From Henricia sp. BOLD:AAB3569 (lineage: Eukaryota; Echinodermata; Asteroidea; Spinulosida; Echinasteridae): a stretch of DNA of 64,000 nucleotides. How positions within the stretch are numbered: position 1 is the first letter of the stretch; each line of letters opens with the position of its first letter. The notes under the pieces are model-generated. The model saw only the letters and a program-made list of their open reading frames with translations, searched no databases and was not told where the DNA came from. A program made the position numbers and the translations under genes. Location of the stretch: the NCBI GenBank assembly GCA_037783545.1, contig JBBELK010000068.1:1798001-1862000 (forward strand). The letters run 5' to 3'. This document shows, in pieces, positions 4,318 through 57,728 of this stretch.

Positions 4318-4623
4318 TTAAAGACAAATTACATAATTGGAATTTTTTTTAAAGAACAGCATTATATAGGCCTAACTGAAGAATATAGATGCAGTAATAC
4401 ATGTACTTCAAAAAACCTTTAAAATTCCATGGTTTTTGTGTTAAAAAAAAAACACACTTTCAGTTGGCAATTTCCCCCACAAAGGTATATTTTACACGGG
4501 AAAAAAATTCATGTGGTGTTTGTTACCATTTCTATCAACACTTTTAGTGGGATTTTTTTCTCTTGCCAACTCGTAATTAAAGTAACATTTTGGGTAACTG
4601 CAAATGATGTATTGGGGCTTTAA
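4318..4623 (-). mobile_element. family D TTAA-flanked MITE, copy 1
   Basis: Both ends are TTAA. The minus-strand end reads TTAAAGCCCCAATACATC, then ATTTGCAGTTACCC, as in the copies at 18645-19001, 34454-35349 and 56841-57728. The body carries the family blocks CACAAAGGTATATTTTACAC and ATGTGGTGTTTGTTACCATT. It shares the TTAA at 4620-4623 with the next copy. Confidence 0.65.
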
Positions 4624-4782
4624 AGGTCTGTGTCAATTGGAACATGAAACTTTACGGATTCTTGGAGTACGGGTTGGCGAACTAGCCTGCGGAAATTTGA
4701 GCTACATGGATGAATCATTTAATGCTTCAAAAAACCTAAAATCCATGCAGTTTTTGTGTAAAGTGAATGGTAAAAAAAATAT
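4620..4782 (-). mobile_element. family D fragment, copy 2
   Basis: This segment starts at the shared TTAA and contains inverted family D blocks (GTTGGCGAACTAGCCTGC and AAAACCTAAAATCCATGCAG). It stops abruptly at 4782, where the GTGTTGAATT inverted-repeat element begins. It is best read as a D copy interrupted by that later insertion. Confidence 0.5.
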
Positions 4783-15450: not shown

Positions 15451-15920
15451 TTAAAGATATTATACATGATTAGTAAACTGTACAAATAGTTTTATCTCCC
15501 TGTGTGATTGAAGATATGCATGATTAAAACCAACCTGAGCAAAAACCAACTCCGTACTTTTGAGAAAACAGTCAAAAAAGGGTTTGCAGTCATTTCGCCC
15601 AAAACCATTTCGCCCTGAACCATTTCGCCCTGAACCATGGCCTGTGTACGAAGTGGTTTTGGGCGAAGTGGCATTTGGGCGATGTAGTGTTTGGACGAAG
15701 TAATTTGGGGCGAAATGGCACTCGGGCGAAGTGGTTTTGGGGCGAACTGAATTTTCGTCTCATGAGACGAAAACTAATTGTTTTACTAATTTCTCAAAGA
15801 TGATATAGCACTTCAGACAAAACCATTTCAGGGGGAGTTTCCTACGGTCATCATGTTTATATTGTGTAAGTTAGGCGTAAACATTTCTGATTTTCGAGAG
15901 TACCAATGATGTACCTTTAA
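15451..15920 (+). mobile_element. TTCGCCC-family TTAA MITE, copy 1
   Basis: Flanked by TTAA at 15451 and 15917. The terminal inverted repeat is short: ACATGATTAGTAAAC on the left against TACCAATGATGTACC on the right. The centre (15590-15750) is a run of CATTTCGCCC and GAACCATTTCGCCCTGAACC words that then appear inverted as GGGCGAAGTGGTTTTGG, giving an internal multi-hairpin. Other copies are at 43886-44105 (cut by a SINE) and 61430-61928, with 5' fragments at 47761 and 56618. Confidence 0.7.
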
Positions 15921-17719: not shown

Positions 17720-18300
17720 TTAAAGGGCCCCTTATTTAGGATTTTTATCAATGAAATCTATGCTTTAAAACCACTTTACTCAGTTAAAGTCATAAAAATC
17801 CTATTTGGAGCTTGCTTTGGGGTTTAAAACAAAGGTTTTTAGTTTTTATGCTAATGAAAATATGCATATTCATGACCAAGGTCACGATGTCACAAGAGGC
17901 AAGCACTGGAAAATCACATTCAACTGTGCACAAAAGATTCCACTTTTTTCTCAATTTTCCTGAAACTGTTGTAATCCATGGCTGTTTGAGTTTGTTTTAC
18001 ATGTTGCCTACTGTATGCCATGACAAAACTGGGGGTAGAAACTGCAGCAATTTGCCACAAGTCCAACTTGAAGTCTTATGTTTCTTCTTAACTTTTCCCT
18101 TCTGTCATTCTTATGTGATGCACTCCAAACAGCGCCCTCTGTCCGTGATTTATTGCAATGAAATCTTCAAAGTTGAAAAATGCCACCTTTTATTGATTTT
18201 ACATCCAAACGAACAATAGTATGTCTTGCTGAACAAGTAATCCGTCATTATGAAGCAAAGCTTAGGCACAAAGTTGTTTAGGATGTCACAGGCCCTTTAA
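17720..18300 (+). mobile_element. family E TTAA MITE, copy 1
   Basis: 581 bp between TTAA sites. The termini are AAGGGCCCCTTATTTAGG on the left and CACAGGCCCTTT on the right. The interior (CATATTCATGACCAAGGTCA; ACATTCAACTGTGCACAAAA; CAGCGCCCTCTGTC) aligns inverted with the 581 bp copy at 54466-55046. The same interior blocks occur in the shorter copies at 20525 and 26950. It shares its right TTAA with the D copy that follows. Confidence 0.75.
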
Positions 18301-18648
18301 AGGCCCATATATCATTTGCAATGACCCAATTTAATTTTCCATGAGTTGACAAGAAATACCTTACTCGAAGTGTTGATAGCAATGGTAACAAACACCACAT
18401 GAATTTATTTCCGTTTAAATGGTATTTCATGCTGGAAATGATAACCAAAGGTGGTTTTCTATATTTAAAAAAAGTCCTATACCATTCACTTGTACACAAA
18501 ATCCATGTATAGATTTTCAAGGTTTTCTGAAACATGGATGCAGAAACTTTTTTCAGGCTAGTTTACCAACATTCTTCCTTAGATATGTTACACTCTTTTT
18601 TCACGAATCTGTAAAATAGTTTTATCTTGCAAATGATACATACTTTAA
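18297..18648 (+). mobile_element. family D TTAA MITE, copy 4
   Basis: Begins TTAAAGGCCCATATATCATT at the right TTAA of family E and ends GCAAATGATACATACTTTAA. The body carries GTTGATAGCAATGGTAACAA, GATTTTCAAGGTTTTCTGAA and ACCAACATTCTTCCTTAGAT. Both TTAA sites are shared with neighbours. Confidence 0.7.
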
Positions 18649-19001
18649 ATGCCCATAATATCATTAATTTTGCAGTGATCCAAAATGTTACAGATTACAC
18701 GATTGAAAAGAACAATTGAAAGAACAATGTTGATAAACTGCCTTGTTGAAATTTCAGCCACATAATGCAGTAATACTTCACAAAACTTTAAAATCCATGT
18801 GTAGTTTTTGTGTTGAATAAATGGTTAAAGAAATCGTTTTCAAACGATTCTTTAAACAAAAAAAGCACCTTCAGTTGGCAATTTCTCCCACAAAGGTATA
18901 TACCATTTCACACGGGTGGGAAATCATGTGGTGTTTCTTACTATTGCTATCGAGAAGTAAAATTTTGGGTATTTATAGCAAAAGATGTATTGTGGCTTTA
19001 A
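18645..19001 (+). mobile_element. family D TTAA MITE, copy 5
   Basis: Begins TTAAATGCCCATAATATC and ends GATGTATTGTGGCTTTAA. Its second half holds inverted D blocks (CACAAAGGTATATACCATTT and ATCATGTGGTGTTTCTTACT), so the copy is internally rearranged or a foldback variant. It is third in a chain of TTAA elements. Confidence 0.65.
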
Positions 19002-36383: not shown

Positions 36384-36705
36384 TATGGTTTAAGTACTTC
36401 TCCATGATAGGCCCTATGGTTTAAGTACTTCTCCATGGTATGCCCTATGGTTTAAGTACTTCTCCATGGTATGCCCTATGGTTTAAGTACTTCTCCATGG
36501 TATGCCCTATGGTTTAAGTACTTCTCCATGGTAGGCCCTATGGTTTAAGTACTTATCCATGGTATGCCCTATGGTTTAAGTACTTCTCCATGGTAGGCCC
36601 TATGGTTTAAGTACTTATCCATGGTAGGCCCTATGGTTTAAGTACTTCTCCATGGTAAGCCCTATGGTTTAAGTACTTTTCCATGGTAAGCCCTATGGTT
36701 TAAGT
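36384..36705 (+). repeat. 31 bp minisatellite
   Basis: About 10.4 copies of a 31 bp unit containing TATGGTTTAAGTACTTCTCC, then ATGGTATGCCC. Units differ mostly at one position (T, G or A in GGTAKGCCC). Such homogeneity suggests recent expansion. It ends about 170 bp upstream of the LINE fragment. Confidence 0.9.
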
Positions 36706-39769: not shown

Positions 39770-39984
39770 ACCGGCCATTCAACACCGGCTAGCTCGGTGG
39801 TCGAGTGGTTAATACGTCTGCCTTGTTTGCAGGAGGTTATGGGTTCGAATCTCGCCCGAGCACGCTATGAAGTTTTTCATAGTGTCTCGGGAAAGCACTG
39901 AGTGCTAATATACGTCGGGTAGGGGCAGAACAAACCCTAATTAACGTTCATTCTCCCCGACGCAGGCTAAACCAATTACTGACA
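39770..39984 (+). mobile_element. SINE-A in the centre of the foldback
   Basis: A tRNA-like head at 39789-39862 has A box AGCTCGGTGGTCGAGTGG, an anticodon-like arm TCTGC-CTTGTTT-GCAGG (TGT in the anticodon position), B box GGGTTCGAATCTCG, and acceptor strands AGCTCGG/CCGAGCA. It is followed by the family tail (TTTTTCATAGTGTCTCGGG; AATATACGTCGGGTAGGGGC; AACGTTCATTCTCCCCGACG). Other copies are at 44106, 52275 and 52500. The tail after the tRNA head rules out a cellular tRNA gene. Confidence 0.8.
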
Positions 39985-52274: not shown

Positions 52275-52470
52275 GTTAATTAGGGTTTGTTTTGCCCTTA
52301 CCCCACGTATATTAGCACTGTATACTCAGTGCTTTCCCGATACACGATGAAAAACGTCATAGCGTGCTCGGGTGGGATTCGAACCCACAGTGCTAATATA
52401 CGTCGGGTAAGGGCAAAACAAACCCTAATTAACATTCATTCTCCCCGACGCAAGCTAAACCAATTACTGA
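52275..52470. mobile_element. SINE-A composite: two halves fused head to head
   Basis: 52275-52388 is the minus-strand SINE-A tail and T arm (GGGTTTGTTTTGCCCTTACC; GAAAAACGTCATAGCGTGCT; GGGTGGGATTCGAACCCA). At 52388 the sequence switches to the plus-strand tail (CAGTGCTAATATACGTCGGG; TAAGGGCAAAACAAACCCTA; GCAAGCTAAACCAATTACTG). The 5' tRNA half is absent from both, giving a palindrome of SINE tails. Confidence 0.75.
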
Positions 52471-52498: not shown

Positions 52499-52722
52499 AC
52501 AAACCGGCCATTCAATACCGGCTAGTTCGGTGGTCGAGAGGTTAGGACGTCTGCCTTGTTTGCAGTAGGTCGTGGGTTCGAATCCCGCCCGAGCACGCTA
52601 TGAAGTTTTTCACAGTGTCTCGGGAAAGCACTGAGTATACAGTGCTAATTAATTTACGTCGGGTAAGGGCAAACCCAAACTAACATTCATTCTCCCCGAC
52701 GCAAGCTAAATCAATTACTGAA
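52499..52722 (+). mobile_element. SINE-A, full copy
   Basis: ACCGGCCATTCAATACCGGC, A box TAGTTCGGTGGTCGAGAGG, TCTGCCTTGTTTGCAG arm, B box CGTGGGTTCGAATCCCGCCC, acceptor CGAGCA, then the tail to CAATTACTGA. The T stem pairs perfectly (GTGGG with CCCGC, one wobble). This is the best cloverleaf of the family. Confidence 0.8.
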
Positions 52723-54312: not shown

Positions 54313-54469
54313 TTAAGTGGGCCTCCCACTGTGCGATTTTTGCCACGAATTTCCAACGATTAGGTACGAATTGGTGATATTACCTGAGACTGTCTATAGA
54401 TTCTATACACAATCGTACCTAATCGTTGGAAATTTGTGGCAAAAATCGTACAGTGGGAGGCCCGCTTAA
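54313..54469. mobile_element. GGGAGGCCCGC foldback TTAA MITE, left copy
   Basis: TTAA, then GTGGGCCTCCCACTGTGCGA; the inverse CGTACAGTGGGAGGCCCGC, then TTAA. Further pairing occurs through TTTTTGCCACGAATTTCCAA and ACGATTAGGTACGA. The loop is short. It shares its right TTAA with family E. Confidence 0.8.
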
Positions 54470-55046
54470 AGGGCCTGTGACATGCTAAACAACTTTGTGC
54501 CTAAGCTTTGCTTCATAATGACGGATTACTTGTTCAGCAAGACATACTATTGTTCGTTTGGATGTAAAATCAATAAAAGGTGGCCTTTTTCAACTTTGAA
54601 GATTTCATTGCAATAAATCACAGACAGAGGGCGCTGTTTTGAGTGCATCACATAAGGAAGACAGAAGGGAAAAGTTTTAAAAAAACATAATACTTCAAGT
54701 TGGACTTGTGGCAAATTGCTGCAGTTTTCTACCCCCAGTTTTGTCATGGCTTACAGCAGGCAACATGTAAAACAAACTCAAACAGCCATGGATTACAAAA
54801 GTTTCAGGAAAATTGAGAAAAAAGTTGAATCTTTTGTGCACAGTTGAATGTGATTTTCCTGTGTTTGCCTCTTGTGACATCGTGACCTTGGTCATGAATA
54901 TGCATATTCGCATTATCATAAAAACTAAAAACCTTTGTTTTAACCCCCAAAGCAAACTCCAAATAAGATTTTTATGACTTTAACTGAGTAGAGTGGTTTT
55001 AAAGCATAGATTTCATTGATAAAAATCCTAAATAAGGGGCCCTTTA
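54466..55046 (-). mobile_element. family E TTAA MITE, copy 4
   Basis: 581 bp, the same length as the copy at 17720 and aligned to it inverted through all blocks. Left end TTAAAGGGCCTGTGACATGC; right end AATAAGGGGCCCTTTAT. It lies exactly between two GGGAGGCCCGC foldbacks. Confidence 0.8.
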
Positions 55047-55050
55047 TGTG

Positions 55051-55192
55051 AAACCTGCCCACTGTGCGATTTTTGTCACGAATTCCCTACGATTGGGTAC
55101 GATTTTGTGTAGAGTCTATAGGCAGTCTCCGATAATCGTACCAATTCGTAGGAAATTCGTGGCAAAAATCGCACAGTGGGAGGCCCGCTTAA
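55051..55192. mobile_element. GGGAGGCCCGC foldback TTAA MITE, right copy
   Basis: CTGCCCACTGTGCGATTTTT, then GTCACGAATTCCCTACGATT; the inverse ends AATCGCACAGTGGGAGGCCC, GCTTAA. The left terminus is damaged where it meets family E. Confidence 0.7.
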
Positions 55193-56617: not shown

Positions 56618-56723
56618 TTAAAGATACGTGTAGTTTACATGTCTTGATTTGAATACTGTTACAAACGGACGGCGTTATCTCCATTGGTGATTGAGGATGT
56701 GTGTGATAAAAGCCAACCTGTGT
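56618..56723 (+). mobile_element. TTCGCCC-family 5' fragment
   Basis: TTAA, then ACTGTTACAAACGGACGGCG, TTATCTCCATTGGTGATTG and TGATAAAAGCCAACCTG. It is cut at the TTAA where the GCTCGTCA foldback starts. Confidence 0.55.
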
Positions 56724-56844
56724 TTAAAGGCACAGGCTCGTCAGCAATGCGCGCTCGCCAAATTCGTGCTACGAAATACGCAGCTCCATATAGCAAAGGC
56801 ACGAATTTGGCGCGCGCGCATTGCTGAAGAGCCTGTGCCTTTAA
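56724..56844. mobile_element. GCTCGTCA foldback TTAA MITE, copy 3
   Basis: TTAAAGGCACAGGCTCGTCA, then GCAATGCGCGCTCGCC; the inverse GGCGCGCGCGCATTGCTGAA leads to GAGCCTGTGCCTTTAA. At 121 bp it has lost the inner GGAGCTGCGTA part of its right arm. It shares the TTAA at 56841 with family D. Confidence 0.8.
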
Positions 56845-57728
56845 TGACCTATTACATCATTCGCAGAGATTCAAAATTTTACTTCTGAGTTGAACAGAAA
56901 AACCGTACTATAAGGCTGCGTTCGGGCGTGTACTCGAGTTATACTCCTGCGCGCGTGAACGGCAAGAATAACGACACTCGGGTCAATGAGAGTAGGCCTA
57001 TGCTCTCGCTACTCCCCAACAAATGGGGAGTGTGCTCGTACTCCTGTCAAGTGTCATGTGATTTGTACGAAGATGGGTGGAATATGGGTGGGATTTTTGG
57101 TGAATTTGCTTAACGTGTCAACTCAATAACTGAAACAATAACTAACTAAGGTTTGTTTGTTTTAGACGGCATCAAAGGTTCTCACGACTTACGGCCTGTA
57201 TTTCCTCAGTTTCTTGTGAGCAATGAAACGGCATTGTGTGCAGCGATGGCAAGAGACGTCCATCTTCACTGATTGCCATTCGCGCACGCGGACTGCGGAC
57301 TTGCCGTTCGCGTGATGTGACCCGAGTGCAATGCGCACGCATTACTCCCGATCAGTAACGAGAACTGCACGCCCGAACGCAGCCTAAGTGTAAAATGGTA
57401 ATTTTGTGGGAGAAATTACCAACTGGAGGTGGTTTCTTTAAAAAAAATTCCACACACACTTTTTGTACTCAACACAAAAAAACATGCATGGATTTTAAAG
57501 ATTTTTTTTTTAAACATTTGTTTTTTAAAAAGTATCACTACGTCTTTGTAGCTTTTAACACAAAAAAATGCGTGTGAACACTAATTCGTATATAATTTTA
57601 TTTTTTTTTTCGGTTATCGTTTTCTGATAAAAGGATATGAAACTATCTTCCACTGAAATATTTTTTTGTCAAATGGTTTATTAAAATGTTGGGACATTGC
57701 AAATTATGTATAGGCCTACGGCCTTTAA
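56841..57728 (+). mobile_element. family D copy split by Harbinger-like element
   Basis: TTAATGACCTATTACATCAT, then TTCGCAGAGATTCAAAATTT before the insertion; AAATGGTAATTTTGTGGGAG, ACATGCATGGATTTTAAAG and GACATTGCAAATTATGTATA leading to GGCCTTTAA after it. Confidence 0.65.
56911..57387. mobile_element. PIF/Harbinger-like MITE with TAA duplication
   Basis: TAA, then GGCTGCGTTCGGGCGTG; the inverse CACGCCCGAACGCAGCC, then TAA. It is 471 bp with GC-rich subterminal pairing (GAACGGCAAG with CTTGCCGTTC; ACTCGGGTCA with TGACCCGAGT). The 3 bp TAA target fits PIF/Harbinger. No coding capacity. Confidence 0.75.

Follow-up and report, generated by a model that had tools for sequence, protein, structure and literature searches.

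Organization of the element chains

The window, a 64,000-nucleotide stretch of Henricia sp. DNA (C68:1798001-1862000) from a genome assembly of 740.7 Mb in 2104 contigs, contains chains of short repetitive elements (Table 1). The chain at positions 17720 to 19001 is made up of three elements with exactly one TTAA per junction, the TTAAs lying at 17720, 18297, 18645, and 18998. A first-pass annotation had read this chain as an E element followed by two D elements; the single TTAA at each junction was confirmed, but the third element proved to be mainly of K type. The E element aligns with its own family over positions 1 to 581 at 97%, and of 40 family members scored from 2818 candidates, the 39 other than that in the window cover E whole at 97 to 98%. 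The match of 18297-18648 to D1 is 85%. When D1 plus K was used as a query, 33 of the 39 other matches ended at query positions 342 to 356, i.e., at the D1 end, identifying D1 as an element in its own right; its copies are mostly 84 to 88% identical to the D1 of the window. Within the third element, positions 46 to 330 match positions 7 to 303 of K1 at 71%, while positions 1 to 91 match the inverted right end of K. A Pfam search with a single-frame translation of 17720-19001, stops included, returned no families.

Table 1. Positions of the elements that form the four chains in the window
Element	Positions	Strand	Remarks
E element, 581 bp	17720-18300	+	TTAA-bounded, ends AGGGCC...; youngest in chain
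D1 element, 352 bp	18297-18648	+	TTAA-bounded; TTAA at 18297 in common with E, at 18645 with next element
K-type element (second D of the first-pass annotation)	18645-19001	+	K-right-type end also at left edge
K element, second chain	4318-4623	+	TTAA at both ends
D-type fragment	4620-4782	+	TTAA at 4620 in common with K; far end not at TTAA
F element, 157-bp palindromic MITE	54313-54469	.	Family duplication TTA/TAA (3 bp), not TTAA
E copy between two F copies	54466-55046	-	Left junction TTAA, right now TTTA
Second F copy	55043-55192	.	Left end diverged
I-family element, left piece (about 110 bp)	56618-56727	+	28-103 match I copies at 72%
G element, palindromic	56724-56844	.	Second member of 56618-57728 chain
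K-like element with long interruption	56841-57728	-	Last member of 56618-57728 chain

The same pattern had been described at 4318-4782, 54313-55192, and 56618-57728, which held only in part, as these three chains are looser than that at 17720-19001. At 4318-4782, K and a D fragment are joined by a single TTAA and the fragment adjoins another repeat; inspection of the sequence revealed no TTAA at 4782. The order at 54313-55192 is F-E-F, with one TTAA at the left junction only and TTTA now at the right. As the chain at 56618-57728 opens with a piece of I, followed by G and the K-like element, G seems to lie inside an older I element rather than at an I edge.

F was considered as a TTAA family and ruled out. 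Both flanks were read for eight genomic copies and were TTA on each side in three, TAA on each side in three, mixed in one, and unclear in one. PIF/Harbinger (Tourist-like) MITEs generate a 3-bp TWA duplication, and the 3-bp TTA/TAA duplication in six of the eight F copies is of this form, so that F looks PIF/Harbinger-like by its duplication. The TTAA used by E in F-E-F is composed of the terminal T of F and a TAA. Two F-E junctions besides that of the window were seen, and their flanks differ. Of 40 F copies scored, 4 lie directly beside a further F (C281, C99, C158, and C480), with the 3-bp duplication shared or nearly so.

Two tRNA-Thr (TGT) genes were predicted on the same strand of the window, at 39791-39863 and 52524-52596, the latter approximately 90 bp after a palindromic repeat at 52276-52432. 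These two predictions may belong to a repeat.

Class of the TTAA elements

Judged by their termini and target duplications, E, D, G, H, I, and K are nonautonomous TTAA elements with AG...CT ends, similar to Kolobok elements and T2-MITEs. In PMC6004289 and PMC9587614, T2-MITEs and the Kolobok superfamily are characterized by a TTAA duplication and AG...CT (5'-RR, YY-3') ends. All 41 full copies of E in the fetched loci are TTAA-bounded (the second E copy of the window has lost one), the TTAA is intact at 33 of 37 D1 ends read, and in the copies listed the duplication was also found for other families. Twenty-five of the 26 ends of 13 library elements (F and X157 left out) start with AG after the TTAA, as expected for 5'-RR...YY-3' termini, with the left end of 18645-19001 (AT) the sole exception. 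The families thus fit Kolobok as described in PMC9587614, but the fit to T2-MITEs as described in PMC6004289 is partial; the motif AGGRR is present in H and the single end M, but not in E, D, G, I, or K. The class is assigned here from the ends and TTAA duplication of the elements, and the transposase type is putative.

Head-to-tail arrangement of Kolobok-type TTAA elements is also seen in the KolobokP multimers, which according to PMC9587614 have long terminal direct repeats in common and are attributed to circles or to unequal crossover, whereas here short elements of different families adjoin. Similarly, the coral CMITEs (PMC2872659) include TTAA MITEs lying side by side and one (CMITE-IN) whose insertion site is a TTAA in a different repeat. 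They differ from the present elements in having piggyBac-type CC[C/T]T ends and in forming tandem arrays of like copies, ascribed to slippage. The piggyBac MITE motif as given in PMC2872659, CC[C/T]T, is absent from the start of all listed ends, and identity as piggyBac MITEs was rejected because the ends do not fit. The genome does encode piggyBac transposases (116 PF13843 matches scored out of 422 candidates, all above the cutoff). On C1249, C153, C296, C1014, C215, and C424, all outside the window, such transposase frames are regularly spaced, with eight matches on C1249, several of them 7994 to 7995 bp apart, and three on C153 at 8524-bp intervals; an autonomous piggyBac unit is apparently repeated in tandem there.

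Insertion sites and the availability of element edges

An element inserting at a TTAA duplicates it, and where the TTAA chosen is at the edge of a resident element, the only possible outcome is element-TTAA-element. As insertion at a flanking TTAA necessarily yields a single TTAA at the junction, this feature says nothing beyond site choice, and the question becomes how often edges are chosen. Insertion of E at an ordinary site is illustrated at locus L026, where an I element is split by E; the E-free form of I is present in the window, with one TTAA at 15524.

E has a site preference, as YTTAAR was found at 28 of 38 E sites compared with 534 of 1587 background TTAAs (33.6%; P = 5e-7). The same motif occurs at 57 of 92 element edges versus 477 of 1495 other TTAA sites. 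Across the window and 17 nonredundant 10-kb loci, which were fetched around E copies and hence are not random, edges of non-E elements account for 92 to 106 of approximately 1594 TTAA sites (5.8 to 6.7%). Edges were recognized by comparison with the ends of 15 elements, a library drawn in part from the chains themselves and extended with the sides so recognized. Scoring was repeated with the own element of each site left out, the version used for the simulations below, and this gave 16 double edges at a threshold of 11, 15 at 12, and 13 at 14 (two focal E sites included). De novo clustering of TTAA sides was also tried, but it mixed true edges with broken interiors and was replaced by the anchored end scoring. 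TTAA-rich local repeat arrays at 2488-2610 and 36390-36703 of the window could pass for element edges.

Adjacency of E to other elements

Outside the window, 5 of 37 nonredundant E copies adjoin a library element via one TTAA; the neighbors are G (L013), K (L020 and L047), H (L042), and an X157-like end (L045). The number expected was 2.1 to 2.5 if all TTAAs are used uniformly (P = 0.06 to 0.10) and 3.2 to 3.8 if weighted by preference (P = 0.21 to 0.34). Duplicate or allelic loci (L010, L015, L022, L030, and L057) were omitted before counting, as were, from the E set, the second and third E copies of the window. Identical or nearly identical flanks surround E on different contigs in the pairs L009/L010, L014/L015, and L018/L022, and 5 kb apart in L029/L030; both haplotypes, or duplications, are apparently present in the assembly, inflating copy counts.

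A query spanning the junction of E and D, for which 40 matches were scored out of 2632 candidates, identified 13 places other than the window where the right end of E meets a D/K right end over at least 110 bp, plus one of approximately 80 bp; two of the 13 lie close together and are alike, probably representing a local duplicate. The 13 to 14 crossing matches were followed by matches to E alone, and E-D as one moving unit was rejected on these grounds. Between 16 and 22 such junctions were expected under uniform insertion and 26 to 37 under weighted insertion; the expected numbers derive from first-look candidate counts that are possibly too low. Decayed D and K ends will be missed; thus, the low count is not evidence of avoidance. 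Overall, E shows no significant excess of adjacency, and its frequency beside other elements roughly matches the supply of edges.

Shared TTAAs among the older families

With the focal E copies removed, 14 of 1549 TTAA sites in the window and the 17 loci (approximately 232 kb) have an element on both sides, one of which (54466) involves F. A block-wise simulation of sequential insertion gave 3.3 such sites under uniform insertion, 5.3 with a 1.75-fold preference for edges (a factor assumed on the basis of E; P = 0.0003), and 8.2 with a 3-fold preference (P = 0.018). At a stricter threshold, 11 shared TTAAs were found against 2.8 (uniform), 4.5 (1.75-fold; P = 0.004), and 7.0 (3-fold; P = 0.073). 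The window, where the pattern was first noticed, supplies 5 of the 14; with it excluded, 9 remained compared with 1.7, 2.75, and 4.3 expected under uniform, 1.75-fold, and 3-fold insertion, respectively. When the TTAAs skipped before the next element were counted, there were 14 direct neighbors (two of them focal E) versus 11 in bins 1 to 6 together, and the excess therefore cannot be put down to local clustering alone. We take the excess in the pooled old families to be real but modest, at two- to threefold. The first-pass annotation had named adjacency no higher than chance as a result that would count against self-targeting; this is what was found for E, whereas the pooled old families exceeded chance.

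A sample of D1 copies drawn without regard to their neighbors (40 scored of 3136 candidates) was read at the left end in 20 copies and at the right end in 17 of these. Of the other 20 matches, seven were already-sampled loci (including two mutual duplicates and the query), two had a known K at the right end, and 11 lay outside the set that was read. None of the 20 unselected left ends has a K right end beside it (upper 95% bound, 14%), and G was present at two; neighbors among the 17 right ends were H, G, a K left end, and a K with a deleted end. In total, 6 of 37 D1 ends abut elements, one of them (L117, the K with a deleted end) called by eye after the score had missed it. The count becomes 8 of 49 when six already-sampled loci are added, where L056 rests on a weak score of 10, and 10 of 51 with the two known K carriers. 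Against a rough expectation of 8.8% per end, which combines landing on edges with later arrivals, the latter part being a guess, these give P values of 0.10, 0.06, and 0.012, respectively. D1 ends show the same modest excess as the pooled old families.

K-D junctions

Junctions between K and D recur dozens of times in the three end combinations searched. A query joining the K right end to the D left end (K_R-D_L), taken from L012, was crossed in all 40 places scored out of 6764 candidates, and one from L070 was crossed at 305 bits or more in all 40 scored out of 5727. After removal of the source and of three pairs of equal score and length from the L070 matches, at least about 36 distinct places remained, compared with 12 to 15 (uniform) or 21 to 27 (weighted) expected. 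An artificially joined query of the K right end and the D right end (K_R-D_R) was crossed in 36 of 40 scored matches. For the K left end and the D left end (K_L-D_L), there were 18 crossings of at least 60 bp and 11 of 30 to 45 bp, against an expectation of 9 to 11 (uniform) or 17 to 22 (weighted).

To compare the ages of the two halves, divergence from the consensus was determined in eight distinct composites outside the window, excluding L012 and L072, a near-copy of L075. The K half averaged 9.8% and the D half 4.3% (P = 0.016). The order in L012 looks reversed (D half, 18%; K half, 3.6%), and its D half may be another D subfamily. Pairwise distances of the K and D halves were not concordant (Mantel r = -0.33) across 10 composites, which included the odd L012 and the near-copies L072 and L075 but not L071, which has a different right half. 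In a tree of D modules, poorly resolved with one starred branch of 25, those from composites are intermixed with solo ones, and the two labels clustered no more tightly than in 109 of 500 shuffles. The composites at L070, L075, and L068 have a TTAA at both outer ends and that at L074 at one; the outer flanks of these four differ from each other, and only L072 and L075 share theirs. Descent of all K-D pairs from one ancestral unit was rejected as a full explanation on account of the distances, the ages, and the K_R-D_R crossings. This evidence favors repeated landing beside an older element over a traveling pair, although some travel is possible.

Origin of the chains

The chains are best read as stacks of separate, successive insertions by nonautonomous TTAA-duplicating transposons (E, D, G, H, I, and K), and we consider it probable that common elements, a preference for YTTAAR, and the availability of edges together explain them. 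On this account, shared TTAAs are common for two reasons: 6 to 7% of the sampled TTAA sites already border a known element, and E prefers YTTAAR, a motif often regenerated at edges, where the element supplies TTAA-A and the flank is often a pyrimidine. The relatives of E probably share this preference, that of the old families being our inference. At 17720-19001, the K-type element is likely to have come first, followed by D1 at its left edge and then E at the outer edge of D1. The first-pass annotation had proposed that every arriving element inserted at an edge of its predecessor, and this is supported by the different ages of the members (E, 97 to 98%; D1, 84 to 88%; K-type, approximately 71%) and by K halves roughly twice as diverged as D halves in the eight composites outside the window. 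The successive-insertion account leaves the modest excess in the old families unaccounted for.

Strong self-targeting, as the first-pass annotation had proposed, is not supported. Under this explanation, a transposase bound to resident terminal repeats would steer insertions to the adjoining TTAA, and ATCATTTGCA-type repeat ends (K right, D left, and D right) would attract D. It could draw on the old-family excess and on K_R-D_L, which is above expectation and commoner (at least about 36 places at 305 bits or more) than K_L-D_L (14 matches at 305 bits or more) when numbers of the two K edges differ little in the sample (12 to 15 versus 9 to 11). We nevertheless judge it unlikely, given that E has no significant excess, that E-D/K junctions are not in excess, that K right ends are absent from the 20 unselected D1 left ends, and that the neighbors of D1 ends include several G and H elements, whose terminal repeats are of other types. 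A narrower form, in which D docks at the TTAA beside K right ends, its own left end preferably facing them, guided by a transposase acting on the shared ATCATTTGCA-type repeat, with K-D pairs perhaps sometimes moving as one, is a decidedly unlikely proposition; if true, it would constitute end-guided targeting by a TTAA transposon, with K left ends and E as built-in controls.

Movement of neighbors together, which the first-pass annotation had also raised, is not needed for E-D and may apply to a minority of K-D pairs. The idea that K-TTAA-D pairs transpose as composite units agrees with the crossing of K_R-D_L in every place scored and with the outer TTAAs and mostly differing flanks of the composites, but the older K halves, the discordant distances, the interleaving of solo and composite D modules, and the K_R-D_R crossings make it quite improbable as the source of the chains. 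Local duplication, by which slippage or unequal exchange would copy an element beside itself, has been described for coral TTAA MITEs (PMC2872659), and the F-F pairs could be of this kind. Since the members of 17720-19001 differ in family and age, they are not copies of their neighbors; local duplication is contradicted for E-D and hardly credible for the chains.

Successive insertion would make these chains a mostly ordinary outcome of common elements, favored TTAA sites, and a fresh good site at each new edge. Among the titles and abstract openings of the literature searched, none was seen to count junctions with a single TTAA between TTAA MITEs of different families. The present analysis offers a worked null for TTAA "daisy chains": with 6 to 7% of the sampled TTAA sites being edges and a preference for YTTAAR that edges often satisfy, single-TTAA junctions are expected often, and they should not be read as targeting without correction for edge density and site preference.
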